The position numbers and the translations under genes are program-made. Shown here piece by piece: positions 299-20,023 of a stretch of 29,246 nt of DNA. The notes under the pieces are model-generated. The model was not told the DNA's origin. It was given only the letters and a program-made list of their open reading frames with translations, and ran no database searches. The DNA comes from a virus. Position 1 is the first letter of the stretch. Each line of letters starts with the position of its first letter. The stretch is taken from positions 1-29,246 of IMG/VR virus record IMGVR_UViG_3300037963_002224. One strand, 5' to 3'.

Positions 299-3200
299 TT
301 ACTGATGAGCGTAGCACCTGCCAGATTTGTTTTCAGTTCTATTCTTACATCTAGGGCCTTTACCTTTTCTTGTAAACGCAGAGCATTGAACTTCTCTAGC
401 TTCTCTTTCTTTTCTTAACCTTTCTTTTTCTTTCTGCTTTTCTATTTTTTCCTCCTCTTTTTTCTTTTGTCTTATTTCTTCTATTTCACCCCTAGCGTTT
501 ATAACCTCTTGGTTTCTTACGCCAACATCCCAAGTGTTCCAACCAAGCAACATAGCTATACGTTGCCAAGTAGCATTATCACTATTAGCTGCTTCACGTA
601 AGTTCATAATTTTCTTATATAATCTATCTGTAGGTATGTTAGTTAATGCAGATATTGTTTGAGTAATAGGTGACCATATAGGATTATCTATATCAAACGT
701 GTCCATGTGTTCTATTTCTCTACGTTTAAACTTATAAGTTCTAAGACCTGTATTTACCTTTCTAACTTTACTACCAACAGGTGGAGATATTTGTAACATC
801 TCAAGTATTATAGCAGCAGTGTCCATACGGAAACCTTTTTGATTTTCCTCTACAAACTTCATTATCATATTTTTAAGTGTAGCAACAACTGCGCCAGCAA
901 CTCCAATACCACGTAAGAAAGAATCAACAACACCGTTAGCAAGTCTTAATGTAGCTCTATCTTTTTCTTCAGCTTTCTTTTTATCTTTTTCTTCATCTTC
1001 ATCATCGAACATGTATTTAAACAGTGCTTGTTGTAATGAACCAAATATTATATTTTGTATAGCACCATAATACATTATTTTAGATATATTTGTTTTAGCA
1101 TCACCTCTACCATTTTTAAGATCAAGTATAGCTTTTTTAGTTAACCTAGCATATTGCATTGGTGTATTTTGGAAAGCAAGTATTAATCTACCAAGTGGTG
1201 AAGCTTGTTGTGAAGAGATCATATCAGGTCTAGAAGACTGTTGAGTTTCTTCAGTTATTTTCTGGAAGTCAGTAAATGCTTTCGCTTCAGCTTCAGCTTT
1301 TGACATACCTTGTTTCATGTATGTTTTTATTCTATTTCTATAAAAAGTAGCACCACCAGAAGCAATAGCAAAGCTATCTGCAATTTGCGTAGGTAAAAAC
1401 CCAAACTCTAACAATTTATTTAAAACACCACTAACACCGTTTCTCTCTGCCATTTGTGCTATTTCATTTTCACTAACAGATCTTTGGTTACCAGCACGTC
1501 TTTGCTTTAACATGTCTGAATTAAATAGATACGCAAAGTCTTTCCAAAACTGTTTTTGGTTTGCAAATGCAGCTGCAGCTTTAGCTGGATTATTATCTGA
1601 CCAGTTTATGAAGTTTATTGTTGATAACGTTTGTAGCACGGCTGATCTACCGTTAAAGAACATGATAGCACCAACAGAGTTGTTAACCCAATTTGTAAAT
1701 TGATTAGTTAGTTTGTTAGTACCAAAGTTTCTGTTAGTACCATTTTCCATACGCCATAGTATATCTTCCATAGCATCTCTCCAATTAGTACCTAACGCAG
1801 CTTCTAGCTTGTTCATTAAAGGACCATCTAATCTATTACCTTTCCAGTCACCAAATAGTTTTTGTCTGTTTTCAATAAACTCACTTAACATATCCTTACG
1901 ACTATCACCTTGTGTCATCATGTAAAGATCCATTGCAACTGTACTTGTTAACCAAGTTTCTGAAGGCGTTACATAGCTAGGATTTTTAGTAATTCTTAAT
2001 ATACCATTTGCATAATCAATCATTTCTTGATCTGCATTAATAGCTTTGTTTATTTGTTTAATGTCTGTTTTTGATATACCAGGAACTTCAACACCAGCTT
2101 TTGTCCACATCCAAACTCTAATACCTTGATCGTAAGTAAACTCTGTTCCAGGTATTTTTTTGTTTAACTTTCTTTTTGCCTTTGGCATAAGCTTATTTAA
2201 AGCTTTATAATCTACAGATAAACCTTGAGCCATGCGATTCATTTGTTCTACACCTCTAGAGTATGGATCAAACAATACATCTTTAAAAAACTGCATGTCA
2301 GCATCACCTTTAGCTCCTTTACCTAACAATGGATACATTAAACCTTTAAAATCTTCTGCGCTAGGCGGTATAAAAAACTTCCATCTACCTTTCTTTTTAC
2401 CAATAAGTTTGGCTTTAGCTTCAGAATATTCTTTGTACTCAGCAATACCAAGGTTTCTAGCAATCATTTCGTTTAAAGTAGAGGCCTCAGATTTACTTCT
2501 TAAAGTAGCTTGTCTAACTTTTGACTTAACATCAAACTGATCTAATATATTTTTAACAGCTTGTACGTTTTTAAGAGCATCATCAGCAAAGTAAAAATCA
2601 TTATAACCTTCAGCCGCTTTGTCAGCAACCCATAATGCTTTTGCTTCAGCCGTACTATTACCTAAACCAGTTATATTGTTTATAGGTATATCAAGACCGT
2701 TATCTTTTAAAAATTTATGTATAGCTTTTTGAGCTTCTTGAGGTCTTGCTGTTAATATAAATATATCGTTAGTACCAAATTTTTCTTGTAACTTTAAAGC
2801 TTTTTTAAATAGTGGTGCTATCTTACCATCAATAACCTTGTTAAATTGTGAAAAGTCAAACTTATAACCAAGATCAGCTAAGCTTTCGTATTCGGCAGCA
2901 TATTGCGCAGGTGTTAACGTACCAGTTGTACCGTCTGGTCTTGTAAACTCAACTAAAGATTTGCTTGTAGCAAGCGTGTCGTCAAAATCTAATACACTTA
3001 TGCCTTTACGATTAGCCGACTTTAAAGTTCTAGCATCATTATTTAGTTTACCTAACTTTGTTTCTTTTGCTACTTCATCACGCGTTTTAAATAATTTATC
3101 TACACTAATAATATCAGCTATACGTGCGTCAGCTTTTTGACCACTTACGTGATATATTCTTTCTAATATTTTAGGAAAACCTTTTAGTCCTTGGGTTATT

Positions 3201-6200
3201 CTAACATGACCTAGTCTACTTGTTTGTCCTAACTTGTCAATAATGTCCATTACATATTTAGGACCAAAAAACTGCGTATGATCTTTGTGTATATTGTCGA
3301 ACACGCTGTCATTATATTTTCCTTGTATAATAGACGTAATTACATCAGCAGAAGTATTTGCAGAAGCTCCTATATGTTCACCTTTAACAACAAGACCTTT
3401 GTATGTAGCTACGTTTGCAGCTCGCTCAATTTCAGCGTCTGTCATTTTAGGATTCTTTTTTCTTACATCAGCTAACTTTCTATTGTAAACAAATTCATAA
3501 TCATCATATTTACTTAACTTATCTACAAAAGCATCGTAATCAGCATTAATTTCAGCTAATTTAAATTTAGTATTATCAATGTAGTTACCAAACATGAAGT
3601 AATCTATACCACTCAAAGCTCTTGTACCAGAAACAATATTTGTTTGTATTTGAGCAAGTGTTACTAAGTCAATATCTTTTATTTTACCATCTTTATAAGC
3701 TTGATTTATTTTATTCCAAAAATATTTTAAATGACCTAAGTTTGAAATATTTGCTTTTTCAATAGTGTTTTTAATTTTTTCTAATGCAGCAAGCTTTTCA
3801 CTAATAGTAGCGTTACTATGTAGTAAAGGTGTATACATTTTTCTTAGCTTTGTATTTTTCTTATTAGCTAATATTATATCTTGTGATTCGTAACCTGTAT
3901 TGTCGTCAGTTAACTTGCCTTTGTTTTTTAATTGATCTGGGTGAAAAGGAGCTGGGCCATCAAACTTAGCAGAGTTTTTAGCAGCATCTAAAGCTCTGTT
4001 AAAATAACCTAGTATAGCCATATCACCACCTAAAGCATCAATAAAACCTCTATCCATACCGTAATCATTAACTAGCATGTTTACCATTTTAGAGTAACGC
4101 TGTGCATTTGCGTTTGGTTTTTTATCTTTACCTCTAAGTTGATGACCTTTGTTTTTTATCATATCTGCTAGTTCAGCAGGAATACCTGGGTGGTTAGTTA
4201 TTTGTTCTAAAAACTTTATATTATCTTTACTTACGTTACCAGCATAAAGATCTTGTATTATAAGCTCTGCAACGCTACCTAAACCAGGATATTGAGCATC
4301 CAACATAGCAAGTTGTATATCGACCTCTTCAGAATCAAGACCAATATTAACAGCCGTTCTAACAGTTGGTATTATTAATTCTAACATACCACTTTTGTCG
4401 TAGTTTTTAAACAATAACTCTCTGTTTATTACTCTGTCACTTTTTAGCACGTTACCTCTTTCAAGTTGTTCTACGGCTTGTATAACAGCATTATCAGCAA
4501 GTTCACCATATAACAATTCTTGTCTTGATTTAAATATATCAGCAATATCTGTTTCACCAATTAATTGTGATCTAAATTGTTCTAAACCTATTTCTTGAGC
4601 CATAGCTCTAGTTAGTGTGTCAAGACCACCTCTTCTAAGCTCTGTCATTGTAGTACCATTAAAGAACTTTTTAATAATATCTACAGATGTTATATCAGTC
4701 ATAGCCTTAGGGTTACGTCTGATTTTTTGTTTACCATCAGTCATACCTTTGTATGGACCCTCTTCACTTGATCTATAAAAATCTACTTGACCAGGTTTTG
4801 TACCTTTAGTTCTACCTTGGAAGTCTGTTGTCCATACTTTTGTACCATCTTCTTGTATAACTAGCTTTTGTACAGCTTTAGGCAAGTTTTTAGCTAACCA
4901 AGTAGTTGGCATGTGTTTTAATATAAGAGCTTTGTTTTTAGGAGTTTTTAACCACATCTCTACTTCTTGTGGTGTTTTACCCATTGTAGCTTCTATAACT
5001 TGTTGTATAGGATTTTTTTCTTTGTAAAATTCTTTTTTAAGAACTGAAACCAAAGGGCTTACCACAGCATTTTTACCACGTTCTGCGGTTATACTAGGTA
5101 AAATACCTCCTAGGTTTAATTTAACATGGTCTAAGACAGTATTTTGATTTTCTTGACTAAGGGCCAATCCATCAGTAAAAGGTGTTTCAGGGGTTAAAAC
5201 ATTTCCTTCATCATCAAAATCAACATCAGTGTCATCATCTGTTAAAACTCTATTAGCAGTATCTAAATCACTTAAAAATTGATCTTGAACGCCAAGTCTT
5301 TTTGCTAAATCATTAGCTCTTAAATTAAGTCTACTGCTTAAAAACTTATCCATATTTTGTATAGCTGGATCATATTCTCTTATAAGTATATCAGCTGCAT
5401 CAGTTAACAACGTTTCTACATAAGTTTTTCTATCCAAACCTTTTCTAAGCTCTGCAGGTATTCTATCGTAAAGTCTTTTTGTTATACTTTCTATAATACC
5501 ACCTACTTCACTTTCAAAAGCAGATCTTTTATTAGAATTTGTAGTAAACTCACCATCAGAATCCATCATAAACATGTCTGAAATCATTGGTGCTATATCT
5601 GATTTTTTAGGTTTGTTGTTAGTTCTTTGATCTAATATACCTTGTAAGTTAGATTTTGATTTTAATATACCAAGACCACTAATTGTTTCAATGCCTTTTC
5701 TTTTTCTAGCTTCTATTCTAGCTCTAGCCATTGGACTTTCTTTACCTCTTTGAAAGTTTTTTCTAAAATCATTAAAGTAATAAGCTGCAGCTTCAGGTGT
5801 GTTTATTTCAAAATCTGCGTTTACCAAAGCTCTTCCTCTTGTTATAATACCTGGTTTTACTTTAGCAAGCTTTCTTTGCACAACACCATTGTTTACAGTT
5901 CCACCTTCAAGATCAATAGCATCTTCAACATAAGTACCAAATTCCATATGGAACTTTAAATTTTCTTGTGCGTCTTCAAACGGTGATAACCAGTTAACTT
6001 CTGGATCTATAAGTCCAGCATTATCAAACCTTGACATAGCTTGAGCATATATATGCGGAGCATTTTCTTTAATCCATAAAGCTAGATTTTGAGTATAAAC
6101 AGCCATTTCTTGAGGAGTAAAAGCTTTTGTATCAGCAGCGTGTCTAGTTTCATGTGCCCAAACTGTACCAACTTCAAAAGCAGGCATATCTTGGTTTAAT

Positions 6201-9200
6201 AATTTTGTAGCTTGAGAAGCGTCTGCAGCTATTAATATGTTTGGTCCATCTAAATAAGCTCCATTAGTCTCTCCGCTTCTAACCTCTTCGATTAATCTTT
6301 CTAAATTTAACAATTCTTTCTCGCTAAGTTTTTCTTCTTGAGCTAGTTTGCGTATATCATATTCAAAGCCTTTATCACTTACTTGAACAACTCTTGGCGC
6401 TCCTTTTTGTTTATCAAATATTAACTCTGCGTTTATTTGTTGATCTGTATTTTTAGCTATTGCATTACCAGTCATTGCCGCAAATAATCTACCAGCCCTT
6501 AAATAAGCAGCTTCTTCAGCTTTTTTAGCCCTTCTTTGTCTTTTCTTACCATCTTTAGTTCTTGCTAAGGCAAATGGAGCTCCATAAACATCTCTTTCTA
6601 CCATTTGTACTAATTGTGGGTCTTTTTTAGCTTTATTTATTAATGCTTTATTCATGTCAGCTTTAATAGCCTCATGAACCATTAATGTTTTCTCTTGGTC
6701 AGAAAGATCTTTATAACGAGAATCTGTCTTTAAAAAGTTTTCATGAACTACTTGACCTCTTTGTCCCCATGCTTTCCAACCCTCTTTGTAGTTAATAGAG
6801 TTAAATATATTCTTATCAGTGTCTAAAGCGTCTTTTAATCTAGACTCGTAATCTTTTCTAGCCTCACCTTGTAAACTTTCTATGTGTTGCTTTACTTTTT
6901 GCTCTCTAATTTGATAACTATCACCTTCTATTACACCAGCCTCGCCATATATACCGTCTAACACATAACCATTACGCATTAGTTGGCTCATTTTTTTACC
7001 ACCAAGTAAAAGTGTTGCAACTTCATTATTACTTGAAAGTCTAGCTTGTGTGTTTGCTTCAACAACAAGAGCTTCTCTATAAAGATTTTTTTGTACTTCA
7101 TCGGTTGATCTAGCTATTTTCATAGCTAACTCTTCTTGTCTATTTTTAGAGTTTTGATATTTAGCCCTAGCGTTTTGTATATCTGCGTTAAAAAATCTTT
7201 TATGTATAGATGGAACTGCTACACCAGGAATATTCATTGTACCACCTGTAATTATAGAGCTAAATATAACATCTTCCCAACCTTCATAATCAAAATCTCT
7301 ATTTAATATTAAAGCTTCAGACGCGGCGTCACCAAAATGTATAGCAAGCTCTTCAACAACTTCACCAGCAGTTCTAGTTCCTATAGCAGCAAGTGAATTT
7401 GCAATGTAAGCAGTGTTACTAAGTGTTATAGCTTTTGTTATATCAGAAGCAGCACTACTACCTATTAAACCTCTAGCTGTTTTACTAGCGTTAGGTATTG
7501 TACCTAAAGCAAAAGCAATACCACCTTCAATACAACCACTAGCTAAAGACTGTAGTATTATTTGATTATCACTCATATCACCAAGAGCAATAGTTTGTTC
7601 TAATGAAGCTAATCTATTGTAATAATCTTCAGCAGACATATTGTCTTTGTTAGCCATTAACTCTTCTCTTGCTTCTTTAGCATATTCAGCAGCGTTTTGC
7701 TGTATAGTCAAATCAGCTCTTTTACTACCACCAGCATTAATACCAAAAGCAGTTGCTGTTAAAGCACTAGCAATATTATAAGCGCCTGCAGCACTACCAA
7801 GTGCTAAACCAGCAGCTCCTTGAGTTCCCACGGCTAATAAAACGTTTGGCATTTGTTGAGCTAAAGTTATAAGACCTTGTCTACGTAATTGACCGCTTGA
7901 TCTAGCGGTTTTGTAATCCATAGCTTGTTCGTAATATTCTTTACCGTTTAATCTACTAGCGTGCATTGTTATAGCATTTTTATTACCAAATATAGCTGGT
8001 ATACTATAACCTATATTTTCCCAAGCACTACTCCACTCGTTTAACAATATATTTGAAAGATCATTTTCTCTAGTTAATATCTTGTTTATACGTTGGTTGT
8101 CTTGATTGTCTTTCATGAAAGTCATGTACTCTTTAGACCATGCTTTTCTTTCTTGTAAATGTAAATCGCTATAAGCAGCTTCGTTAGAAGCTACTTCGTT
8201 AAATTTTTCTTGATGATATTTTATTGCAGGATTGTCAGGATTATTAGAAAAAGCTTTGTATAAAACAGTACCATCTTTTAATCTTTTCATTTCAACACCA
8301 ACACCATCTTTCTGAGCGTTTAACCTAACTCTTTTTAATTGCTCAATTACTTTTTTCTGATTGTTTACAAATTTATCATCAATTTTAGTTGCAGCTTCTT
8401 TTCTTATCTCACCCTGTTTGTACAAGTCAAACTTTCTACTTTCAGCCCACCAATTAGTTTCTACATCACGTTCACCTTCTCTGTTTTGTTTATTATATAA
8501 TACGTCCCAAGATTTTTTTAAGTTAAACTCATGCTGTTCGTCTATTGAGCCAGCAGCCTGCTTGTCTCTTTGTAGTTTAGCCTGGTCAAATATAATTTTA
8601 TCCTCATCAGATAGCTGCTCTCGTATTTCATCATTAAATACAGTTTCATATCTTGTTTTTTCCCAACCATCAACAGTAACAGGCATTTCTACAGTTCTAG
8701 TGCCAGCGTTAACCATTCTATTTTCTTTTATCTCAGTATTAAGATGTTTTTCAAGTATAGAATAACCTTCTTCAGACATACCGTCTGTTACAATTTTTAA
8801 GTCTGTTTTTGATCTTGGGGATTTTGCGTAGTCTAGGATAGCGTCATCTCTTGTCGCTATATTTGGATTTTTTATTTGTATTTCTTTATATAACTCGGCC
8901 TCACGCTTAGCTATATTAGCTTTAGCGTTATCCATTTTATTTTTTTCTTCGTCTGTAAAAGTATTTTTATCTGCTAAAAACTCTTGTACTTTAGCTGGAG
9001 TACCTTTAAATATAACCTCACCGTCTCTTGTTACAGAATAACCATTTACTCTACCTTCAGCAGCGCTTGCATCTGGTTGTATTGAAACATTTACACCGTT
9101 TTTACTATAAAAATTATTAGCACCATTTAAATCGTCTTGTTCAAAAGAAGTAAATAAACCACCAAGTTTATCAGTATCACTTTTTACACCAGTTAATAAA

Positions 9201-9877
9201 TTATAACCATACTCTCTATTAGCTATCTCTTCTTGATTAGCCACTTTGTCGTCCATCAATTTTTTAACTTTCATCCATTTTTGATAGTTTAACATTTCAG
9301 GACCAGTTAAACCTAATTCTTTTTGAAGTTCTTTGTCAACGTTTTTATTAGTAAAAAAAAGTTCTGGATTATCAAACATATCAGGATCTAAATCTATCTC
9401 TATTTTTTCACCATTTATAGTAAATACAACCTCGCCAGACTGAGCTATTACTTGTGCTTTTCCATCTGTAAAAACATCTCCATAATTTTCATTAAACCAA
9501 TCAACAAGTTCACCTGAGTTTTTGTCTATAAAAGGTTTGAAGTTACCTTCATCAAAAGCCGTCTTTACTAAGTCATTATCAACACCTTCTCCAGCTATCA
9601 TTGCCGATTTATCTAAAGCTTTAGCATTATTAACTTTTTCTAACCTTGCTTTTTCTGCCGCCTCTCTTTCTTTTTGAATCTGCTCGTTATACTTTTTGTC
9701 AGCTGCAATTTGTTTTTTTATTAAGGCATTTTGGTCAGCAACCCAAGCGTTGTTTTTGTCAACCACATATTTATCAAGAGTCTGACGTATGGTAGCGCCA
9801 GGAACTCTGTTTTTATACATGTGCTCATATATTTGCTGCATTTCAGCTTTATGCTGATCGTTTAATTCAAATTTCAT
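299..9877 (-). CDS. Giant multidomain protein (3192 aa), putative virion-delivered polyvalent/internal protein
   Basis: This is the largest gene of the window and has no recognised single function. Visible parts in order: a charged N-terminus with a Lys/Glu-rich helix (about 55-85); hydrophobic Ala/Gly-rich segments (about 665-716 and 770-796) that could contact membranes; a basic patch (KKRQRRAKK, about 1105-1115); an HETRHAAD motif at 1242-1249, fitting a zinc metallopeptidase HExxH; a HAD phosphatase-like domain (about 2290-2465) with DFDDT (D2297, D2299), T2376 in ILTARP and D2432/D2433 in FADDA; a hydrophobic stretch near 2730-2755; a Lys/Glu-rich helix (about 3125-3163); and a terminal Cys/His knuckle (C3165, C3177, C3188, H3191). 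It lies 3 bp after the internal virion-like gene, at the end of the structural block where podoviruses encode ejected proteins. T7 gp16 (1318 aa) is the positional analogue, but no transglycosylase motif is seen. Packaging in the virion and both enzyme activities are inferred. Confidence 0.85.
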   Translation of the reverse strand: MKFELNDQHKAEMQQIYEHMYKNRVPGATIRQTLDKYVVDKNNAWVADQNALIKKQIAADKKYNEQIQKEREAAEKARLEKVNNAKALDKSAMIAGEGVDNDLVKTAFDEGNFKPFIDKNSGELVDWFNENYGDVFTDGKAQVIAQSGEVVFTINGEKIEIDLDPDMFDNPELFFTNKNVDKELQKELGLTGPEMLNYQKWMKVKKLMDDKVANQEEIANREYGYNLLTGVKSDTDKLGGLFTSFEQDDLNGANNFYSKNGVNVSIQPDASAAEGRVNGYSVTRDGEVIFKGTPAKVQEFLADKNTFTDEEKNKMDNAKANIAKREAELYKEIQIKNPNIATRDDAILDYAKSPRSKTDLKIVTDGMSEEGYSILEKHLNTEIKENRMVNAGTRTVEMPVTVDGWEKTRYETVFNDEIREQLSDEDKIIFDQAKLQRDKQAAGSIDEQHEFNLKKSWDVLYNKQNREGERDVETNWWAESRKFDLYKQGEIRKEAATKIDDKFVNNQKKVIEQLKRVRLNAQKDGVGVEMKRLKDGTVLYKAFSNNPDNPAIKYHQEKFNEVASNEAAYSDLHLQERKAWSKEYMTFMKDNQDNQRINKILTRENDLSNILLNEWSSAWENIGYSIPAIFGNKNAITMHASRLNGKEYYEQAMDYKTARSSGQLRRQGLITLAQQMPNVLLAVGTQGAAGLALGSAAGAYNIASALTATAFGINAGGSKRADLTIQQNAAEYAKEAREELMANKDNMSAEDYYNRLASLEQTIALGDMSDNQIILQSLASGCIEGGIAFALGTIPNASKTARGLIGSSAASDITKAITLSNTAYIANSLAAIGTRTAGEVVEELAIHFGDAASEALILNRDFDYEGWEDVIFSSIITGGTMNIPGVAVPSIHKRFFNADIQNARAKYQNSKNRQEELAMKIARSTDEVQKNLYREALVVEANTQARLSSNNEVATLLLGGKKMSQLMRNGYVLDGIYGEAGVIEGDSYQIREQKVKQHIESLQGEARKDYESRLKDALDTDKNIFNSINYKEGWKAWGQRGQVVHENFLKTDSRYKDLSDQEKTLMVHEAIKADMNKALINKAKKDPQLVQMVERDVYGAPFALARTKDGKKRQRRAKKAEEAAYLRAGRLFAAMTGNAIAKNTDQQINAELIFDKQKGAPRVVQVSDKGFEYDIRKLAQEEKLSEKELLNLERLIEEVRSGETNGAYLDGPNILIAADASQATKLLNQDMPAFEVGTVWAHETRHAADTKAFTPQEMAVYTQNLALWIKENAPHIYAQAMSRFDNAGLIDPEVNWLSPFEDAQENLKFHMEFGTYVEDAIDLEGGTVNNGVVQRKLAKVKPGIITRGRALVNADFEINTPEAAAYYFNDFRKNFQRGKESPMARARIEARKRKGIETISGLGILKSKSNLQGILDQRTNNKPKKSDIAPMISDMFMMDSDGEFTTNSNKRSAFESEVGGIIESITKRLYDRIPAELRKGLDRKTYVETLLTDAADILIREYDPAIQNMDKFLSSRLNLRANDLAKRLGVQDQFLSDLDTANRVLTDDDTDVDFDDEGNVLTPETPFTDGLALSQENQNTVLDHVKLNLGGILPSITAERGKNAVVSPLVSVLKKEFYKEKNPIQQVIEATMGKTPQEVEMWLKTPKNKALILKHMPTTWLAKNLPKAVQKLVIQEDGTKVWTTDFQGRTKGTKPGQVDFYRSSEEGPYKGMTDGKQKIRRNPKAMTDITSVDIIKKFFNGTTMTELRRGGLDTLTRAMAQEIGLEQFRSQLIGETDIADIFKSRQELLYGELADNAVIQAVEQLERGNVLKSDRVINRELLFKNYDKSGMLELIIPTVRTAVNIGLDSEEVDIQLAMLDAQYPGLGSVAELIIQDLYAGNVSKDNIKFLEQITNHPGIPAELADMIKNKGHQLRGKDKKPNANAQRYSKMVNMLVNDYGMDRGFIDALGGDMAILGYFNRALDAAKNSAKFDGPAPFHPDQLKNKGKLTDDNTGYESQDIILANKKNTKLRKMYTPLLHSNATISEKLAALEKIKNTIEKANISNLGHLKYFWNKINQAYKDGKIKDIDLVTLAQIQTNIVSGTRALSGIDYFMFGNYIDNTKFKLAEINADYDAFVDKLSKYDDYEFVYNRKLADVRKKNPKMTDAEIERAANVATYKGLVVKGEHIGASANTSADVITSIIQGKYNDSVFDNIHKDHTQFFGPKYVMDIIDKLGQTSRLGHVRITQGLKGFPKILERIYHVSGQKADARIADIISVDKLFKTRDEVAKETKLGKLNNDARTLKSANRKGISVLDFDDTLATSKSLVEFTRPDGTTGTLTPAQYAAEYESLADLGYKFDFSQFNKVIDGKIAPLFKKALKLQEKFGTNDIFILTARPQEAQKAIHKFLKDNGLDIPINNITGLGNSTAEAKALWVADKAAEGYNDFYFADDALKNVQAVKNILDQFDVKSKVRQATLRSKSEASTLNEMIARNLGIAEYKEYSEAKAKLIGKKKGRWKFFIPPSAEDFKGLMYPLLGKGAKGDADMQFFKDVLFDPYSRGVEQMNRMAQGLSVDYKALNKLMPKAKRKLNKKIPGTEFTYDQGIRVWMWTKAGVEVPGISKTDIKQINKAINADQEMIDYANGILRITKNPSYVTPSETWLTSTVAMDLYMMTQGDSRKDMLSEFIENRQKLFGDWKGNRLDGPLMNKLEAALGTNWRDAMEDILWRMENGTNRNFGTNKLTNQFTNWVNNSVGAIMFFNGRSAVLQTLSTINFINWSDNNPAKAAAAFANQKQFWKDFAYLFNSDMLKQRRAGNQRSVSENEIAQMAERNGVSGVLNKLLEFGFLPTQIADSFAIASGGATFYRNRIKTYMKQGMSKAEAEAKAFTDFQKITEETQQSSRPDMISSQQASPLGRLILAFQNTPMQYARLTKKAILDLKNGRGDAKTNISKIMYYGAIQNIIFGSLQQALFKYMFDDEDEEKDKKKAEEKDRATLRLANGVVDSFLRGIGVAGAVVATLKNMIMKFVEENQKGFRMDTAAIILEMLQISPPVGSKVRKVNTGLRTYKFKRREIEHMDTFDIDNPIWSPITQTISALTNIPTDRLYKKIMNLREAANSDNATWQRIAMLLGWNTWDVGVRNQEVINARGEIEEIRQKKKEEEKIEKQKEKERLRKEREAREVQCSAFTRKGKGPRCKNRTENKSGRCYAHQ

Positions 9878-9880
9878 TTA

Positions 9881-11686
9881 TTAGCTTTCTTTTTGTATAT
9901 TTTCTAATATTGCGTTGTAATCAACAGTACCATCTGAACCAGTTGGTACATTTTGTGCATAACCTAATTGTTTGTCTTCAGCAGCAGTACCTCTACCAAT
10001 CATTCTGTTGTATTGGTTTTCAAAGTCTGCAACTATATAATTAGACATCATATCTACAAGAGTATCTTCATCAAAATTAGGATTTTCTCTATTAGTTAAA
10101 GCATCCATTAAAGTGGCTTGATCTTCGTCTGATAGTTTTTCAAATTCTTCTCTACTTATTTTACCGTCATCGTCTTCAATACCTTTTAAACCTAAACCTT
10201 CATAAGTAAACATGTTTGAATCTAGCAAGTCATCAACAAAATTTCTACCATTACCAAGAACATCATCATTCATTAATGACACTAAATTACCATCTCTTAT
10301 AGTTTTTTGAACTTGGTTTCGAGTATCTTTTCTCATGTTTTCAAAATCAGCCGTGAAATTATTATCACCATCACCAGAAGATATAGCAACATCTTCTAAA
10401 GCTTTAGCTTTTATTCCGTCTCTAACTTTTTGTATACTATTTATAGTAACAACATCTTCTTTTGAATCATATAGCTTTTGCTCAATTTCATTTTTAGTAT
10501 ATTCTTTACCGTTAACATTAAAAGTTGTTACCACCTTGCCATCAACCATTTTAGTGCTAACTTTTGTTGAAGGATCTATTACGGCTTTTAAAATGTTTTG
10601 AGTTTCTGCATCTAAATTTTTAATTAAGTTTGGAGATTCTTTACCGTCAACACTTTGTGTGTCAAAAGTTTTTGCAACATCCATACGTAAGTCTTTTAAG
10701 TTTGCTGTTTCTGCAGCATAAGTATTCATTTGACCTTGCAATTTAGCTTGTAATTCTTTATCGCCATCTAAAACAGCTTGATCATAATCACCCTGCATAG
10801 CAGTTATATTAGTTGTAAACGCATCAAAATAGTTATCACCTAAAGCACCAGCACTATCCAAAACACCTTGCGATAACTCTTGACCTTCTTTTTTAGCAGC
10901 AGCATTTTCTTTTTTTGTCTCTTCTCTTTTTGCTTTTACATCTTTAGCAAAACCCTTAGCTACATCTACAAGACCACTAGCTCTTGTACCAGCTTTTTGA
11001 TCTACTCCAGATAATGCACCAGCTCTATAAGCGCTTATTAATCCAGCATCAACTGCTTTTAACGGTGACTTCATTGGTGTTGGACTTGCTAAACTAGCTA
11101 CAGAACTAGCAGCATTAGTTATACCACCCCACATTTGATCGTTAGCTTGTTGTTCTTTATAGTTTGCAGCTTCAAGATCAGCGCTAGCCATAGCCATAAG
11201 GTTTGACACCTTATCTCTTTCCATATTTCTTGACATAATTTCGCCCTCTCTTTCTGCATTTTGTATTTGAGATGCAGCTTGTCTTTCTAATTGTTGGTTA
11301 GCTTGTTCTTGTTGACCAATTGATATAGCTGCTTTTTGAGAGTCTATGCTACCTTGATTAGCTAATGTTTGAGCTAAAGCAGCAATACCAGAACTACCAG
11401 CAGAACCTTTCATTTGATTTAATATATTGGCTTGATTTTGCTGTTGTTGAGCTTTAATAAACTCAGCTTCTTGTTGGTTCACAGCAAGATCTTCCATTTT
11501 GTTCTCCATATTAGCAAAAGGATTACTAGTATCTAGTTGTTCAAATTGTTTTTTTCTTTGTTCTATTTCGGCTTTAGCTATTTTAGCCTCTGCTTCAGCG
11601 GCTTTTCTTCTTTTAGAACCTCCGATAGCTTGGGCTACACCAGCACCAACACCAACAGCGGCAGCACCTACTAGTAAAAAACTCAT
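9881..11686 (-). CDS. Internal virion-like protein with N-terminal hydrophobic segment and EF-hand-like loop (601 aa)
   Basis: Probably an internal core or ejection protein, analogous in position to T7 gp14/gp15. The N-terminus has an Ala/Gly/Val-rich hydrophobic segment (residues 3-22, FLLVGAAAVGVGAGVAQAIG), then a basic patch (KRRK) and a long Gln/Ala/Glu-rich helical region (about 28-185) with many predicted coiled-coil heptads. I recall the piece NPFANMENKMEDL as frequent in marine phage internal proteins. A second Lys/Glu-rich helix follows around 245-270. Near the C-terminus, residues 503-514 (IEDDDGKISREE) match an EF-hand calcium loop at positions 3, 5, 6, 8 and 12, but position 1 is Ile instead of Asp. 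The gene is 3 bp from the cupin stop and 3 bp from the giant gene start, so all three are probably co-transcribed. The virion role is inferred from composition and position. Confidence 0.75.
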   Translation of the reverse strand: MSFLLVGAAAVGVGAGVAQAIGGSKRRKAAEAEAKIAKAEIEQRKKQFEQLDTSNPFANMENKMEDLAVNQQEAEFIKAQQQQNQANILNQMKGSAGSSGIAALAQTLANQGSIDSQKAAISIGQQEQANQQLERQAASQIQNAEREGEIMSRNMERDKVSNLMAMASADLEAANYKEQQANDQMWGGITNAASSVASLASPTPMKSPLKAVDAGLISAYRAGALSGVDQKAGTRASGLVDVAKGFAKDVKAKREETKKENAAAKKEGQELSQGVLDSAGALGDNYFDAFTTNITAMQGDYDQAVLDGDKELQAKLQGQMNTYAAETANLKDLRMDVAKTFDTQSVDGKESPNLIKNLDAETQNILKAVIDPSTKVSTKMVDGKVVTTFNVNGKEYTKNEIEQKLYDSKEDVVTINSIQKVRDGIKAKALEDVAISSGDGDNNFTADFENMRKDTRNQVQKTIRDGNLVSLMNDDVLGNGRNFVDDLLDSNMFTYEGLGLKGIEDDDGKISREEFEKLSDEDQATLMDALTNRENPNFDEDTLVDMMSNYIVADFENQYNRMIGRGTAAEDKQLGYAQNVPTGSDGTVDYNAILENIQKES

Positions 11687-11689
11687 ATC

Positions 11690-12523: not shown

Positions 12524-15500
12524 TTAGTTTGAAGTTGAAGTTATAAAATTAGACGCTTGTAAAGTTATAGTACCGTCAGGTGCGGACTTACCATATTGTC
12601 TAAGCCTTATTGTTCCAGTAACAGTTACTATAGTGCTAGGATCGTTTATAGTAGCTTTAGGATTTATAAGCTCGTATTGCCAGTCACTAAATATTCTTAG
12701 ATTAGAGCTAGCTGGTAAACCAGAGTGTGCCACGTCTATTGATATAGAGTCGTTTGTGGCTACTGAAACTACTTTTGACACTTGTGTTTTATTAAGTCTA
12801 TTTGTAGTTTCACCATTAGCATAATCAAGATCTTCAACAAACATACCTACTTTAATACCAGTAGTATCAGGCATGTGTATAGTAGTTCCTGCGTTATCAG
12901 CTTGACCCGCTGTAGTGTACTCGTTATCAAAACCTAAGAAATCGTTTAAAACTGGTTGTCTGACTATACTTAAAGTTCTACTTGCTGTTCTTGTATATGT
13001 AAACGTAAAAGGAAAATCTAGCTTTGTTTCAGAGGCAACTGACTTAAGCGATCTACCAGCTGTAACAGTAACATCACTTCCAGAAGCAGTCACATTTGTT
13101 ATAGTGCCTTTTGTTATAGTACCACTAACATTACCAACAACTTCCCAGCTACTAGCAGCATCAGTGTTTATGTTTGTAGGTATTCCAGAAGCTAAAGCTA
13201 TGTTTTGTGGTGCATTAGAAACGCCGTTAACAGTAAAATCACCAGCTTCAAAAAACACACAATAAGTACCAGTAGGACTAGCAGTATCGTCAGGCATTAT
13301 TGATTGTAAAAACACAGTACCATTGTTAGTGACAACATGAGCGTTTGTTCGTAATCTATACGGATTAGTGCTATTACCTTGTGCTGAATCAGCGCCTTGA
13401 TGATTACCAATACCATGTGGACCAGTATTTCCAGTTAAGTCTGTAGTATCAACCCAAGCACTTGTATTCCAGTTGTAAGCTTTTTCTATTCCATTTTGTG
13501 CGGTATTTAATTTTACCATCATAGAATAAAACAAGCCGTTTACATCTGTAGGTATAGTATAACCAGTACTGTCAATTTGTACGGTAACAGTATCTGTAGG
13601 TGACAAAATACTATTTGAAATGCTTGTTTGAGTAACTCTTTTTCCTAAACTAGTTTTTGTAACTATAGTTCTAGCTAGGTAGCTAAGTCTAATATCGTGA
13701 AGGTGTGCGCAGAAACCTCCCTCACCACTTGGTGGATCTGGATCTAAACCAGGTACGTTTACTGGTGGAGTATAAAATATTTCTATAACAGACTTTTCAA
13801 TTTTATTTGTGTTACCAGTAGAAGTATAATAAGTGTCTGTTACGTTCCAAGTGTAATAAGAAGCCCAAGGTGCATTTGATAGCCTGTTAAACCAAGAAAC
13901 ATCAACACCACCACCACTTTGGCTTTGTGCTGACAAGTGGTAACCTGATGCAGCTGTTATGGTATATTCTGCTATTTTAGTTGTAACACCTTGTGTTACT
14001 GTACCACTCCATTTATCTGAAGCTATGTTTGTTGCTCCTGATAAAAACGTAACATTATCAGTTCTAGTTATTCCAGTTACAGGTGAGCTAGGTACTATTA
14101 CAACATTATCAGCGCCGTGCTCTTCATAAGAAACATGTAAACAAGCATCTCTAAGTATTTCACCACCTGTTGCGGTTCCACCGTGATCAACGTCAAAATG
14201 TCTATCATAATCACTACTAGGCATAGTGAAACTATCATAATACGCCCTTGCTTCTACAACGTTTGCAGGATCACCAGCTATACCTTGGTTTCTAAATTCA
14301 ACTTTTGTAATATTTTGATCAGCGTTCCAACCTACTGCGGCTGTGTAAATATAAACAGTTGAATTACCACTACCACTTGTTGTCGCTGTACCATTAGGCA
14401 CGCTAAAATCTTTAGCGTCTAAATCTAAACCTGAGTAAGTATAAAGACCGTTTGTTAAAGTTAAATTATCAATATAACTACTTGATGTACCAGCAGGAAC
14501 TGTAGAACCAGCAGCAGCTGAATTAACTTGAAAAGATCCTATTTTAAAATCAGCATCAGCACCGCTTGAATCCCAATTTACATTACCAGCTGCGTTTGTA
14601 GGATGTGCATGTACATTTATTTTATAAACAGTTGCTGGATCACCACTATTGTTAGTGCTTGCATTACCTAAGCCTTGTACAGAAAACTCTCTCTCATCTA
14701 AGTTATCCAATGTTGTTGTTACACCTTTTAATGTACCAAACCACTTGCCTTCTTTATTTTTAAACTCTATGTCATCAATTTCTTGTAAGTCAGTAGTTAT
14801 GCTATCAACATACCAACCAGCTTTAGCTGTTAAGTTATCATATCTATTATCTGTTTTACTACTAACAGTTGTAAACTGTGATATTCTAGCTTGAGTACCC
14901 TCGTAATTTATAGTATTAAAACTCTTTACAGATCCTGGTTGATCATTAAATATTAACGTAAAGTCAGAATAATATTGAGTGCCGTAAAAATTATTAGTTG
15001 TTGTGTTGTTATGGTGTTTCCATATACTACCTTCTTTAAAAGTATAGTATTGATTATTTAAACTTATACCAGCTTCAGGGCCAAAAGACTTAAAACTTAC
15101 CCAGCCTTGAGTTAATTCATTATAACTTAAAGTTGTTGTTGTAGGTCTAAATTGACGTTTATCTACTCTAGTACATAAAGTTAAATTATACTCATTTTTC
15201 TTTTCATCATAAGTACCTATAAGTTCTGATAAGTTTTCAAGATTATCATTAAAGTAATCTTTCATACCTATATCAGATATACTTTTTATTGACATACCAC
15301 CTTCTAAAGCTAACACTTGACCTCTCATTTGATCTGCCCAATACATACCAAAAGGTGTTACTGCTAAAGATTCTGGGTTTGTTGATATACCATAATCGCC
15401 ATTTATCGGAGTTGCTTGACCAAGCACCGCGCTGTTAGACGTTACATTAGCGTTACCATCAGCATTAAACAAAGCATCTTTGTTTGTTAAAATTCTTAAA

Positions 15501-18500
15501 ACTTTGTCTTCACAAAAAGCAAAAGTATCAGTATCTCTACTAACAAGCTTTTGTATAGACCCATGTCTTGGGCTAAGATCTTTAGTTATAGGTTCTGCTT
15601 GTATAAACTGGTTTAAATTATTAACACCACTTGTTGAGTTGAATATACCAGAAAAAATCATACCACTGCTTCTGTGCTCTTCAGAATAAGGTTCAGCTAA
15701 AACAGTAGATGCTTTAACACCATTAGCAACTTTAGGTGCATTATAATCATCTCTAATTCTATCAGACTCTATACCGTTACCAAAAGACCAGCAATTGTGC
15801 CAGCCTAAATATTGTGGTTGGTGATGTGGAGCTCTCCAAGGTTGTGGAGCAAATGGTGCTCTTTTATTAGAAGGAGCTTTACCTGTTACAACTTCAATAA
15901 TTTGTGTACCAGCAGCATAAGGATTTGCAGTTGCCTTAGACACATAAAGAACAGAATAACTACCGTCGTATTTTTTTATTTTTATATACTGATCATGATC
16001 TAAAGTATCTACTAAAGCTGGTGACACTGTTATTTTTGTTAAGTCTTGATCTGAAGGCTGATTAACAGCTGTTATTTTATATACTTGTCTTTCATTGTTA
16101 GAGTCAACGTGCCAAGCGTTGCTATCATTTCTAGCTTCAAATGTTGAGAATAAAGGTATTAACAACTCGTTATTTTTATGAGTAACATTTAAAGGTATAG
16201 CGCCAGATGCTTCAAAATAAATATCTACGTCAACATTTTCTTTTGGTTCAGTTTCCCATATAGCTGGTTCTTCAGTAGAAAGCTCACTTCGATCAGCACC
16301 AAAAGTTGTATCTGGTGTTACTATATCAATTATTGTAGAACTATAACCATCATGCCTCATTGCGCTTAAAGGATCCCAAGTCATTGAATTTTGTCCTTGA
16401 CCTAAATCCATTGGTAAACCATCTTCATCTCTTACAATATCATGAATAAACATTCTTCTTTTAGCAGAGTCTGGTTCGTTACCCCAATGGTGACTCCAAG
16501 CATTTGCATGACCAACAGCTCTTACAACTCTATAAACAACTTGACCTGGATCTGATCTGAATCTAAAAAGCGTACCAGCTCTTCTCATTGCCGCATAAAA
16601 GTCTACTGAGTTTTGATTACCAATAGTAGAATTTGTACTACCATGTCTTCTTATTCCCCAATATATTCTAGTGCGATCAGAATAATGTCTTATACCTCCT
16701 CTTCCCATACCATTGTCTATATCTGTGTGAGATGGATGAGTTCCATTATCATCTGAGTGCCAACCACTACCGTCTGTCCACGTCCATTCGTCGTGTTTAT
16801 ATCCAGCAGCATCTATCCACCACTGATCGTGAGCTGGCATATTTATCCAATATTTTCTATCTCTACTTCTAGAAGAATAATAACCCATTTGCTCGCTAGC
16901 AGAAAATTTACCAGGTTGACCGTAAGCACTTGCGGTTGTCCCAGGACTACTAGCTTCAGAACCGTACCAATTACAATTACCTCTATGGAAAGTGTGACCT
17001 GTTTGATTTACAGAAGGATGCCTTGTATCACCTTGATCTCCAATACCAGATATAAACCTTACTGGGTGACTACTAATTATGTTATAAGCAGTGGTAGGCT
17101 CAGCAGCGTTTGTTAAAACATTATTCTCTAATGTTGAATCTCTATATATTTTTACAAAAAACCTACCATCAAACTCAGCTTTATTTTCTACAACATTTTC
17201 TCTTAGTTCAACTCTATATACAGGGAAATTACTATCATCTCCTAAACCTTGAGGATTAACAACAGTACCGTTACCAAGCTGAGCGCTCATTAAAGCATCG
17301 TCACCAAAAGCCGCTGACAAGCGTATAACGTGGTTTGCACCAATCTCTCTAATACTTGCAATGCTTACAAACTCTGTTGCCATTGTAACATTGTTAAGTG
17401 TAGCTGTTAATCTAACCTGCATACTACCTCTTCCAACTTTAGCATAAACATCTGTCATCCAACTTTCTCCAAAAATATCGTCCCAGCCATCGTTACTACC
17501 TGGCGCTGTTGGAATAATAATTTCATTAGCAGTAGAAAAAAACGTACCACTTCCACTACCTTGCTGAGTAGTTCTAACCGCTCCATGAGGTTTTCTTGTT
17601 GTTTTTACAAATAAAGGAGCGTCTTCTGATATTGCTATAACTTTATATCTTGCTTTGTCAATGACAGGGTCTTCACTATCATGTTTCTTTTTTAGTATTA
17701 AAAACGTTTCATCATCTACTTTATTTCTTTCTGCAGATGGAAAAGAAATCCATACGTTACCATCTTCTGCGTTATACCAACGATCCATAGCTAAGTTGTA
17801 ATACTCGTTTGAAGTTTCTTTAACATAAAACTTCATGTATTCTGCCCATGTAGGTATTGTTGAATTAGGGTGAACTCTTGCTTTTAAACAATTAGAATAA
17901 GTAGACCATTTTTTATCTAAATAAATACTACTACTTTTTGTAGGTATTTGTACTGGAGTTTCTCTGCCGTACTTATCACTAAACACAACTCCAACTTGAT
18001 ATGTTCTAAGCGTTTTGCAAGAAGTTTCAGTTGAATAATTTCTCTTGTGATCAAAACTAACATCTAGTTTTAAATCCTGTGCTAATTCATAATTTTGTTT
18101 GTAGTTACCATATATTAATCTATTAGAAGTTATTTCTTGAGTCAAAGCACTTTTAGGTACGTTGTCCCAAGGTCTTAACAATTGATTAGAAGGTAATATA
18201 GCATGAATCATTTCTGATGTTAAATCATACTGACCTCTATTATAAGGACTAGCGGCTGTATCAGGCCATTGAGGTGCACCGTCTTTTTTTGTTATTTCTT
18301 TTACAGTATATATTTCATTCTTACCATCTTCTTTGTACAACAAATCTACTTGAATAACATCATCTGGCATCATGTGAGTTTCTGGGAAAAAGTTTGTTAA
18401 CCTTAAACTTTTCATTCTGTTTGTCATACCTAAGTTGTAACCTTTTTTGCAAACATAATCAAAACTACCAGGTATAAACGCTACTTGTGTCCAAGGTGCA

Positions 18501-20023
18501 AAAGTAGAATATTCACCGTCAGTATATTTCCATCTATAAGAAAATCTAGGGAATTTAAATTCAAATAAAGCTGGAGGTGAGTCTAATCTACATCTCCAAG
18601 TTGTTGGTGATGTTGCAATGTTTTCAGCAATACTTATTATTTCAAACTCATAAGGTCCAATTTCACCACCGTTGTTTGGCATGCCATTTGGCCCATCAGT
18701 AACTTTAACTCTTACTTGAGCGATTTCAGCGTCAAAAGAATCTGCTAAAACATTTAAGTCATCTGTAAACAATAGTACATCACCAGTTCTAAAATCTACA
18801 GGTTGGTTAAAGTAAAAGTTTGATATTATCTCTCCAACTTCATAAGCATCACCATTAGCATCACTCCATTGAAAAGTTCCATTAGCACCAGTAGATGTTC
18901 CCGTGTCAGCATATGTTAAGTTTGCTTCCGGCTCTGGAACTGCTAGTGTAGAGTCTGGAACTCTATCTATGCTAGTTTCTAGCATTCGTAATTCTAAAGG
19001 ATATTTAGGTGATTTTTTTATTACAGTTATGTTTTCTGTCATTATCCACTCTGGCCTAACATTAGTTCTGTTTAAACATGTTCTAAAACCAAGAGGACTT
19101 TTTATAACATTTCTAGTATGGAAATTAGCGTTATCACCAAACGAAGGTGGTATTAAGTCAGCTTGAACATTACCAGTGTTATTAGTATGACTACCTTTTT
19201 GAGCGTCGTCCCAACCGACAACTTGTAACAAACCACCAGTACCCATCAAACTTCTTTCTATATGTATTTTTTTAGGCTCATTTACACCGTCAGTCCAAAA
19301 CAACATACCTTCTAAATGGTTTATGTTGTTTATTTTAACATAAGGATTAAAATTTAAAATTCTTTCACCAAACTCAGAGTGAAAATAAATATTTTCATTA
19401 TTACTAACTGGTATAGCCTCACCATTAGAACCGTTGTCCCATTTGTAATCATGCCACACTTGCCAACCGTTGCTAATCTTTACAAGATCTGTTACCAAAA
19501 CGTTGTCTTCAAATGTTAAGGTTTTAGTAGCACCACCTACGTGATTAGTAAAAGTACCTGTTATATGCATTCCAACTCTAACGCCAGTTGTGTTGTTTGC
19601 AGTACCATTATCACTTATGGTAAAATACTTATTAGTATTATCATTACCAACTTGAGCTTCTTCAACATTATATATATCTACAAAAACATATCTAAAAGTA
19701 TTAGTAATAGTGTTGTATTCTATTATATAATCTTTTTTAACAAGAGGTTTATAATGACCAACGCCACCACCTGAAACAAAATAATATATTAAGTCTTTTT
19801 CAGCTATTGCATGAGCGCCAACACAAGTACAATAATCAGCTGGAACAATATTATTACTTAGCTCTGTGTTACCAAGTAGAGTTTGTAAAGCGCCAACATC
19901 ACTACCGTCTGAAGTTGATATTTGTACGTTTAATGCATCTCGATACTGACCAGAAGGTAAAACTCTCTCGTCCATATCTTTGTTCATCTTTGCACCTGAA
20001 AAATTTCTTTTTAATTCAGCCAT
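12524..20023 (-). CDS. Giant tail nozzle/fibre-like protein (2499 aa)
   Basis: The N-terminus (residues about 8-50, FSGAKMNKDMDERVLPSGQY then DALNVQISTSDGSDVG) matches the opening I know from podovirus nozzle-type proteins, which begin with a short 'few-knots, must-obey' strand before a beta-propeller. T7 gp12 is 794 aa and P22 gp10 is 472 aa, so this protein is three to five times longer. The excess is mostly Ser/Thr/Asn/Gly-rich beta sequence with repeated short domains, a Trp/His-rich stretch at about 1055-1190 (for example WTWTDGSGWHSDDN), and a Pro-rich linker (PGLDPDPPSGEGG) near 2100. It could be a nozzle fused to receptor-binding fibre domains. It lies 9 bp after the 318-residue adaptor-like gene. 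Gene identity as tail protein is strong; the exact assignment to nozzle or fibre is inferred. Confidence 0.75.
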   Translation of the reverse strand: MAELKRNFSGAKMNKDMDERVLPSGQYRDALNVQISTSDGSDVGALQTLLGNTELSNNIVPADYCTCVGAHAIAEKDLIYYFVSGGGVGHYKPLVKKDYIIEYNTITNTFRYVFVDIYNVEEAQVGNDNTNKYFTISDNGTANNTTGVRVGMHITGTFTNHVGGATKTLTFEDNVLVTDLVKISNGWQVWHDYKWDNGSNGEAIPVSNNENIYFHSEFGERILNFNPYVKINNINHLEGMLFWTDGVNEPKKIHIERSLMGTGGLLQVVGWDDAQKGSHTNNTGNVQADLIPPSFGDNANFHTRNVIKSPLGFRTCLNRTNVRPEWIMTENITVIKKSPKYPLELRMLETSIDRVPDSTLAVPEPEANLTYADTGTSTGANGTFQWSDANGDAYEVGEIISNFYFNQPVDFRTGDVLLFTDDLNVLADSFDAEIAQVRVKVTDGPNGMPNNGGEIGPYEFEIISIAENIATSPTTWRCRLDSPPALFEFKFPRFSYRWKYTDGEYSTFAPWTQVAFIPGSFDYVCKKGYNLGMTNRMKSLRLTNFFPETHMMPDDVIQVDLLYKEDGKNEIYTVKEITKKDGAPQWPDTAASPYNRGQYDLTSEMIHAILPSNQLLRPWDNVPKSALTQEITSNRLIYGNYKQNYELAQDLKLDVSFDHKRNYSTETSCKTLRTYQVGVVFSDKYGRETPVQIPTKSSSIYLDKKWSTYSNCLKARVHPNSTIPTWAEYMKFYVKETSNEYYNLAMDRWYNAEDGNVWISFPSAERNKVDDETFLILKKKHDSEDPVIDKARYKVIAISEDAPLFVKTTRKPHGAVRTTQQGSGSGTFFSTANEIIIPTAPGSNDGWDDIFGESWMTDVYAKVGRGSMQVRLTATLNNVTMATEFVSIASIREIGANHVIRLSAAFGDDALMSAQLGNGTVVNPQGLGDDSNFPVYRVELRENVVENKAEFDGRFFVKIYRDSTLENNVLTNAAEPTTAYNIISSHPVRFISGIGDQGDTRHPSVNQTGHTFHRGNCNWYGSEASSPGTTASAYGQPGKFSASEQMGYYSSRSRDRKYWINMPAHDQWWIDAAGYKHDEWTWTDGSGWHSDDNGTHPSHTDIDNGMGRGGIRHYSDRTRIYWGIRRHGSTNSTIGNQNSVDFYAAMRRAGTLFRFRSDPGQVVYRVVRAVGHANAWSHHWGNEPDSAKRRMFIHDIVRDEDGLPMDLGQGQNSMTWDPLSAMRHDGYSSTIIDIVTPDTTFGADRSELSTEEPAIWETEPKENVDVDIYFEASGAIPLNVTHKNNELLIPLFSTFEARNDSNAWHVDSNNERQVYKITAVNQPSDQDLTKITVSPALVDTLDHDQYIKIKKYDGSYSVLYVSKATANPYAAGTQIIEVVTGKAPSNKRAPFAPQPWRAPHHQPQYLGWHNCWSFGNGIESDRIRDDYNAPKVANGVKASTVLAEPYSEEHRSSGMIFSGIFNSTSGVNNLNQFIQAEPITKDLSPRHGSIQKLVSRDTDTFAFCEDKVLRILTNKDALFNADGNANVTSNSAVLGQATPINGDYGISTNPESLAVTPFGMYWADQMRGQVLALEGGMSIKSISDIGMKDYFNDNLENLSELIGTYDEKKNEYNLTLCTRVDKRQFRPTTTTLSYNELTQGWVSFKSFGPEAGISLNNQYYTFKEGSIWKHHNNTTTNNFYGTQYYSDFTLIFNDQPGSVKSFNTINYEGTQARISQFTTVSSKTDNRYDNLTAKAGWYVDSITTDLQEIDDIEFKNKEGKWFGTLKGVTTTLDNLDEREFSVQGLGNASTNNSGDPATVYKINVHAHPTNAAGNVNWDSSGADADFKIGSFQVNSAAAGSTVPAGTSSSYIDNLTLTNGLYTYSGLDLDAKDFSVPNGTATTSGSGNSTVYIYTAAVGWNADQNITKVEFRNQGIAGDPANVVEARAYYDSFTMPSSDYDRHFDVDHGGTATGGEILRDACLHVSYEEHGADNVVIVPSSPVTGITRTDNVTFLSGATNIASDKWSGTVTQGVTTKIAEYTITAASGYHLSAQSQSGGGVDVSWFNRLSNAPWASYYTWNVTDTYYTSTGNTNKIEKSVIEIFYTPPVNVPGLDPDPPSGEGGFCAHLHDIRLSYLARTIVTKTSLGKRVTQTSISNSILSPTDTVTVQIDSTGYTIPTDVNGLFYSMMVKLNTAQNGIEKAYNWNTSAWVDTTDLTGNTGPHGIGNHQGADSAQGNSTNPYRLRTNAHVVTNNGTVFLQSIMPDDTASPTGTYCVFFEAGDFTVNGVSNAPQNIALASGIPTNINTDAASSWEVVGNVSGTITKGTITNVTASGSDVTVTAGRSLKSVASETKLDFPFTFTYTRTASRTLSIVRQPVLNDFLGFDNEYTTAGQADNAGTTIHMPDTTGIKVGMFVEDLDYANGETTNRLNKTQVSKVVSVATNDSISIDVAHSGLPASSNLRIFSDWQYELINPKATINDPSTIVTVTGTIRLRQYGKSAPDGTITLQASNFITSTSN

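Follow-up and report, generated by a model that had tools for sequence, protein, structure and literature searches.

A giant viral protein with predicted peptidase, sigma-70 region-2-like, and PNKP-like phosphatase modules on a conserved C-terminal region

The IMG/VR virus record IMGVR_UViG_3300037963_002224, analyzed here over its whole length of 29,246 bases (hereafter, the window), raises the question of what a single protein of 3,192 residues does when its gene closes a structural operon and joins several unrelated predicted domains. The protein (approximately 359 kDa, pI 8.5, both computed from the translation) carries a predicted zincin-type peptidase, a sigma-70 region-2-like domain, and a HAD phosphatase, in this order and with conserved motif residues, ahead of a C-terminal region that is constant among relatives and on which the N-terminal halves have been exchanged. 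We read it as a polyvalent protein that most likely travels in the particle and enters the cell together with the DNA, where it would act through its modules, and we give this reading a probability of roughly 0.55. A first-pass annotation of the window, made from the sequence alone, had described one reading frame of this length, which we recovered exactly, on the minus strand, together with an HExxH motif and a HAD domain with its acidic and threonine residues, both of which were present. Its suggestion that the protein is polyvalent holds in kind, given the disparate domains, the zincin, the late neighborhood, and a loose C-terminal match. The annotation did not foresee the sigma-like domain, the resemblance of the HAD domain to PNKP, or the fact that relatives have exchanged N-terminal halves.

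The constant C-terminal region and the exchanged N-terminal halves

A protein search with the giant protein recovered 49 loci with related proteins from viral contigs. The comparison set comprised 49 proteins, i.e., that of the window and those of 48 loci, after a protein whose frame leaves its contig at residue 2607 (L003) and the second fragment of L033 had been dropped. The 49-row alignment has 52 invariant columns, every one of them within residues 2512-2945. BLAST coverage, as means per 100 residues, included 39-48 of the 48 relatives over window residues 2301-3100 and 3-9 of the 48 over residues 1-2200. The two parts of the protein also differed in their affinities. In the C part, L008 showed 74-75% identity to L009, L010, and L019, with which it shared 6-7% of the N part, whereas L013 and L040 were 40% identical in the C part, yet shared 58% of the N part. 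Because of these contrasts, we conclude that N-terminal halves were exchanged and did not change by drift alone; they have been swapped independently among relatives on a constant C-terminal region, which suggests that the payload evolves fastest. The N part of the window protein had no Pfam or PHROG match, and PADLOC, run on 20 of 38 N parts, reported just LmuC in one of the 20 (E = 1.2e-4). Among phage records, the window had no close DNA relatives, and tblastn found no record for the N half of the giant protein and two weak records for the C half.

The C-terminal region is predicted to consist mostly of helices. Among viral predicted structures, 49 entries matched the whole C-terminal model at E ≤ 0.001, some of them covering just part of it; 10 of these have polyvalent-type names, and one is a structural protein of phage Gundel_1. 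The first-pass annotation had pointed to marine flavobacterial phages as a source of homologues, and the Gundel_1 protein gp074, which carries HExxH, indeed matched residues 2700-2900 (sub-profile, E = 3e-7; hhalign, 1.8e-7). The other giant proteins of the isolates tested gave no significant hhalign match to the C-terminal profile (the Calle_2 giant was not whole in this test). The HAD and whole C-terminal profiles found nothing at E ≤ 1 among the isolate proteins, where the sub-profile of residues 2700-2900 alone matched Gundel_1, and a sequence search of solved structures with the C-terminal region gave no match at E ≤ 1. We consider that this region may tie the giant protein to the particle. 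In L046, two overlapping frames, 6057-9977 (1,307 residues) and 9974-12082 (approximately 702 residues), stand in place of one giant; the second, whose start overlaps the end of the first by about four bases, is the C-terminal region alone, and the region can therefore stand alone. The architecture may also reach gut phages, because a frame of 2,739 residues from a human faecal sample (MT836673.1; L066:3-8219), open at the contig end, carries HExxH and a portion of the C-terminal region (E = 7e-12).

Predicted peptidase, sigma-like domain, and phosphatase

The peptidase is predicted from sequence, mainly through its conserved ligands. HExxH (H1242-H1246) occurs once in the window protein (by chance in 45 of 2,000 shuffles of the protein) and is found in 45 of the 47 family proteins with an N part, where composition predicts 0.69; the N part is missing in L020 and L046 and lacks the motif in L026 and L042. 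An aligned downstream glutamate was present in all 45 HExxH proteins, being E1312 in the window protein, 70 residues past the first histidine. In a separate alignment of 41 sequences with a mean identity of 15%, the four HExxH+E residues were the sole invariant positions. In the AlphaFold model of the zincin and sigma-like part, the blocks with the first histidine and the glutamate were both helical, with a mean predicted local distance difference test score (pLDDT) of 79 and 88, respectively, and the fold matched a lethal-factor chain (Z 7.4 over 190 aligned residues). The zincins of polyvalent proteins are related to lethal factor in the main text of PMC5512222. Pfam Peptidase_M78 matched one of 18 N parts (E = 4e-4); the window protein itself had no Pfam peptidase match, and no viral predicted structure matched the zincin/sigma model at E ≤ 0.001.

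A peptidase in this position might belong to a late scaffold or morphogenesis factor, whose zincin would process virion proteins as particles assemble, with a mainly architectural role for the other domains. Such a role would suit the late operon position directly behind the virion genes and the fact that nothing in the N half is as constant as the zincin motif. Moreover, the Pfam and PHROG scans, which covered 10 window proteins and left out a 381-residue gene and the terminase, revealed no prohead-protease family. We nevertheless regard this explanation as unlikely, since a structural role would not require the HAD catalytic residues and the Walker-type loop of the nested kinase described below, both of which are kept, and since relatives whose C parts are similar have exchanged their N halves.

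Behind the peptidase, residues 1459-1532 are likely to be homologous to region 2 of sigma-70, with a putative sigma function. Model residues 1407-1531 matched region 2: by title, 49 of the 50 rows shown were RNA polymerase or sigma-factor entries (Z 7.4-8.6), and about 20 of these rows lay near 2 Å over 63-71 residues. The sequence evidence stands apart from this structure model. When compared with PDB, a 30-row profile of the sigma patch gave six matches at E ≤ 10, five of which were sigma factors (best E = 0.0023), and a 41-row alignment of a wider region gave four, three of them sigma factors (best E = 0.035). Sigma70_r2 of Pfam matched one of the 30 alignment members (E = 0.001) and, among 50 records, occurred inside giant frames at two places, in L040 within the patch that follows the zincin (20.3 bits, E = 2.7e-5) and in L045 at residues 2214-2276 (21.6 bits, E = 3.3e-6), both E values being those for one record. 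A profile built without L040 and L045 matched these proteins (1e-16 and 2.6e-13, respectively) where Sigma70_r2 does, and none of 50 column-shuffled profiles matched either. The domain was found in 41 of the 49 proteins, including L026 and L042, which have no HExxH. It was matched just in part in L011, L016, and L033, and was absent at a domain E < 0.01 from L013, L020, L031, L032, L035, L039, L046, and L048. Among the seven isolate records, Sigma70_r2 matched none, and the core sigma profile gave nothing convincing. Eight relatives (L058-L065) have a separate sigma-like gene of 253-259 codons with a Sigma70_r2 match, which exceeded the cut-off in seven of the eight.

It is possible, although doubtful, that the protein is delivered and that this domain is a retired helical module with a partner other than RNA polymerase, leaving the peptidase and phosphatase alone to act. 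The domain is divergent, its two Sigma70_r2 matches inside giant frames lie under the 24-bit cut-off, and Pfam scans of the window and of 38 N parts, which missed region 2 too, gave no Sigma70_r4 match. With a separate sigma-like gene in 8 of the 50 records, the giant protein also need not provide one. What makes us hesitate to accept this explanation is the presence of the domain in 41 proteins, two of them without HExxH, and a residue pattern that by eye resembles regions 2.2-2.3.

The HAD phosphatase most resembles the phosphatases of the PNKP type. A pattern search located motif II in 40 proteins, and in all of these the catalytic set (DFDxT, T, K, and DD; DFDDT in the window) was intact. 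The search missed motif II in the other nine (L021, L038, L039, L040, L042, L045, L046, L048, and L050), of which L021 carries DFDDT. For the model of residues 2271-3192 (mean pLDDT 74.0), the top VIA-align rows were the 3'-phosphatase of T4 Pnkp (Z 13.2), Pnkp1 (12.5), and T4 polynucleotide kinase (12.3), followed by a row at 11.2. The family phrog_415, annotated "polynucleotide kinase," matched 13 of the 49 proteins in a family scan, including that of the window (E = 2.5e-6). When the giant protein of the window was searched singly, phrog_415 over the HAD part (E = 1.4e-5) was the sole PHROGs match below 0.001, Pfam gave nothing near its cut-offs, and NCBIfam gave no match.

The spacing between motifs I and II was 76-79 residues in 32 of the 40 proteins, 276-279 in seven, and 220 in L029. 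In L023, L024, L027, L030, L031, L041, and L049, a P-loop kinase of approximately 200 residues is nested behind motif I, at a position where many HAD enzymes have a cap, and we judge this to be an unusual build. All seven intervals matched AAA_33 and Zeta_toxin and keep a Walker-type loop; phrog_505, also annotated "polynucleotide kinase," was found in 5 of the 38 N parts scanned (4 of 20 and 1 of 18). Sequence comparison with PDB gave two matches, a shikimate kinase and a zeta toxin (E = 0.0024 for the latter), and the kinase may be of the polynucleotide or of the zeta type. By eye, the insert of L029 differs from the kinase; what looks like one mobile domain of approximately 140 residues interrupts the HAD domain there and follows it in L021.

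Alternatively, the giant protein could be an effector directed against rival phages or the host and not at repair or transcription, with the nested kinase of the relatives as a zeta-type enzyme that acts on UDP-sugars. The Zeta_toxin matches in all seven kinases, the solved zeta toxin among the two PDB matches, and the swapped N halves, which resemble effector diversification, are in line with this idea. We think it improbable, however, in that the surrounding HAD domain is PNKP-like, phrog_505 matches the kinase as well, and the window protein has no recognized kinase.

Comparison with known systems and a proposed mechanism

The phage polyvalent proteins described by Iyer, Burroughs, and others (2017; PMC5512222) resemble the giant protein in that unrelated predicted domains (here a zincin, a sigma-like domain, and a HAD domain) are joined in one giant chain, with a zincin HExxH and with virion genes (portal and structural) adjoining on the same strand; the C-terminal fold match to polyvalent-named proteins is a looser likeness. 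Unlike them, it has domains that the main text of PMC5512222 does not name: that text contains none of the terms "sigma," "polynucleotide kinase," "PNK," or "haloacid," and "had" occurs three times, the occurrence checked being the verb. Polyvalent proteins are known mainly through domain lists, to which, relative to that main text, sigma region-2-like and PNKP-type domains would be new. Among the titles and abstract openings of the openly licensed literature, we found nothing that reports a sigma or PNKP domain in a phage protein that is delivered, nor any proteomic study of the virions of these phages.

The ejected RNA polymerase of N4-like phages, with approximately 3,500 residues (PMC12633501, PMC10925440), is the nearest working analogue. 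The two proteins are alike in size, in a podovirus-type neighborhood, in the proposed role at genome entry, and in having a zincin in the same chain (PMC5512222), but the sigma-like domain would borrow the host polymerase. We also considered whether the giant protein is itself an RNA polymerase, which seems unlikely, as no RNA polymerase family was among the Pfam and PHROG matches, although fast-evolving ones can escape such scans. With T4 Pnkp and Pnkp1, the top-scoring solved folds of the HAD domain, the seven relatives share the combination of phosphatase and kinase; the window, in contrast, has the phosphatase alone, and in the relatives the kinase sits inside the HAD domain. Sigma-70 factors are probably related through the fold and profile of region 2, but here region 2 is the only one recognized and lies inside a giant chain behind a peptidase. 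Finally, giants of Elemovirus, Pervagoviridae, Pachyviridae, MW202828, and Panino occupy the same operon slot, and those of elemo and MW202828 have HExxH.

On the polyvalent reading, the following course of events can be proposed. The conserved helical C-terminal region would hold the protein in the virion or the ejection apparatus. After entry, the zincin would cut its own chain or a host protein, freeing the other modules. The sigma region-2-like domain could then dock on the clamp of the host RNA polymerase and either direct early transcription toward phage promoters or withdraw the enzyme from host use, and the PNKP-like HAD domain might strip 3'-phosphates from cut DNA or RNA ends, making resealing possible. 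In the seven relatives, the nested kinase could add the 5'-phosphate. The most specific version of this scheme, an injected chain in which a peptidase travels with a region-2 domain that seizes the host RNA polymerase ahead of all phage gene expression and with an end-healing enzyme, is offered tentatively, as something rather improbable in its entirety. If true, it would parallel the polymerase ejected by N4-like phages, with the difference that the host enzyme is borrowed and none is brought in, and it would carry an N-terminal payload exchanged between phages. Should the sigma-like domain bind RNA polymerase, the phage would control transcription from entry onward.

Several results weigh against this reading. 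For the zincin, the AlphaFold model is of moderate quality (mean pLDDT 61.5), and a fold score of Z 7.4 is, according to the tool's own note, at the level of common arrangements. The zincin profile found no significant peptidase among PDB sequences: of eight matches at E ≤ 10, the best was a four-helix bundle (0.015), and the peptidases were M16 (0.72), IrrE (0.96 and 2.3), and stromelysin (3.7). HExxH is missing from the giants that phi38:1, phi19:3, and Panino have in the same slot. For the sigma-like domain, besides the scores under the Pfam cut-off, Sigma70_r2 had no match at E ≤ 1 in the window protein. The hhalign score against the eight standalone phage sigmas, 15.4, fell short of significance (1 of 100 shuffles equaled it), and several control tiles of other regions equaled or exceeded this score, up to 20.5; the core sigma profile gave scattered matches to the eight sigmas, the best at E = 0.022, none of them clear. 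An 18-row sub-alignment found no sigma factor in PDB, and a 29-row alignment without L040 gave nine matches, of which five were sigma factors (best 0.31) and the top one was another protein. For the phosphatase, plain Foldseek of the whole 922-residue model against PDB listed 50 rows, none at E ≤ 0.001 and none a PNKP chain, its HAD rows being other HAD proteins, and the window protein has no recognized kinase (no P-loop pattern in residues 1-2280 and no Pfam kinase family). For the C-terminal region, superposition on polyvalent-named proteins was loose, with query TM-scores of 0.19-0.40, and LPD38 (PF18857, cut-off 27 bits) exceeded its cut-off in none of 56 records, was absent at E ≤ 10 from the 50 family records, and was absent from 14 control genomes.

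Gene neighborhood and minor features

The main genes of the window lie on the minus strand, and the giant gene is the last long gene of a portal-capsid-structural operon related to that of flavobacterial podoviruses (Table 1). A 381-residue gene also belongs to the operon, between the portal gene and the gene at the capsid position, after which come more virion structural proteins, among them the one of 2,499 residues. Portal relatives were found in 87 records of the phage collection, 86 of which carry flavobacterial genus names; one is an uncultured Caudoviricetes.

Table 1. Features of the window and of one relative, with coordinates and the evidence for each.
Feature	Residues	Coordinates	Strand	Evidence or remark
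Giant gene	3192 aa	299..9877	-	ATG at 9877, stop ends at 299
Variable N-terminal part, no recognized domain	1-1138	6464..9877	-	BLAST: common to 3-5 of 48 relatives
Hydrophobic segment ahead of peptidase	773-791	7505..7561	-	Hydropathy
Predicted zincin-type metallopeptidase	1139-1392	5702..6463	-	HExxH+E invariant, AF2 model, fold match
HExxH motif	1242-1246	6140..6154	-	Motif pattern and alignment
Predicted third zinc ligand	E1312	5942..5944	-	Alignment
Sigma-70 region-2-like domain	1459-1532	5282..5503	-	Fold and profile evidence
Variable linker	1533-2284	3026..5281	-	Mostly lineage-specific by BLAST
HAD phosphatase, PNKP-like	2285-2460	2498..3025	-	phrog_415, T4 Pnkp fold, motifs
HAD motif I, DFDDT	2297-2301	2975..2989	-	Pattern
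Conserved helical C-terminal region	2460-3120	518..2500	-	Alignment, model, viral fold matches
Hydrophobic stretch in C-terminal region	2983-3009	851..931	-	Hydropathy, model
Cys/His knuckle resembling DUF5763	3165-3192	302..385	-	Pattern
601-aa gene directly upstream of giant gene		9881..11686	-	Open reading frame list
2499-aa virion structural protein, same operon as giant gene		12524..20023	-	phrog_14478
Virion structural protein		22785..24332	-	phrog_13704; putative major capsid protein by position
Portal protein		25523..27868	-	phrog_6547
Putative terminase large subunit		27870..29246	-	Cut by contig end; named by position beside portal in relatives
Nested P-loop kinase, example		L031:9353-10063		Inside HAD domain

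Seven isolate records were examined (Flavobacterium phage elemo, phi38:1, phi19:3, Calle_2, MW202828, Maribacter phage Panino, and Tenacibaculum phage Gundel_1), and in all but Gundel_1 the structural operon ends in a giant gene. The same-slot proteins, which in the five records that list them whole have 1,691 to 3,859 residues, are labeled structural protein (elemo, phi38:1, phi19:3, and Calle_2), "reticulocyte binding/rhoptry protein" (MW202828), or "tRNA methyltransferase" (Panino); the labels in phi38:1 presumably rest on mass spectrometry. In Gundel_1, gp074, a giant of 2,482 residues, is positioned before the terminase and not at the operon end. LPD38 matched the Panino giant (L052:8229-13718) below its threshold (20.4 bits, E = 1.8e-5).

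Of the smaller features listed in the first-pass annotation, hydrophobic segments and a Cys/His knuckle were retained with qualifications. The two hydrophobic segments in Table 1 pass a 19-residue hydropathy threshold of 1.5 but are modest and no clear membrane helices. The knuckle is real but optional, its pattern occurring in 17 of the 49 proteins. Pfam DUF5763 matched 10 of the 49 at E ≤ 1 (best 9.6e-9); the window protein has the Cys/Cys/Cys/His pattern and no match at E ≤ 1.

A weak EF-hand-like match (E = 0.035) was seen for the 601-residue gene next to the giant gene, which by resemblance may encode an internal virion or ejection protein. Farther upstream in the virion operon, at 11690-12142, a protein of 150 residues appears cupin-like by eye and is 81-99% identical in L002-L005. 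Directly behind the giant gene, a cut frame at positions 2-268 starts, by eye, with a lipoprotein-like signal peptide.

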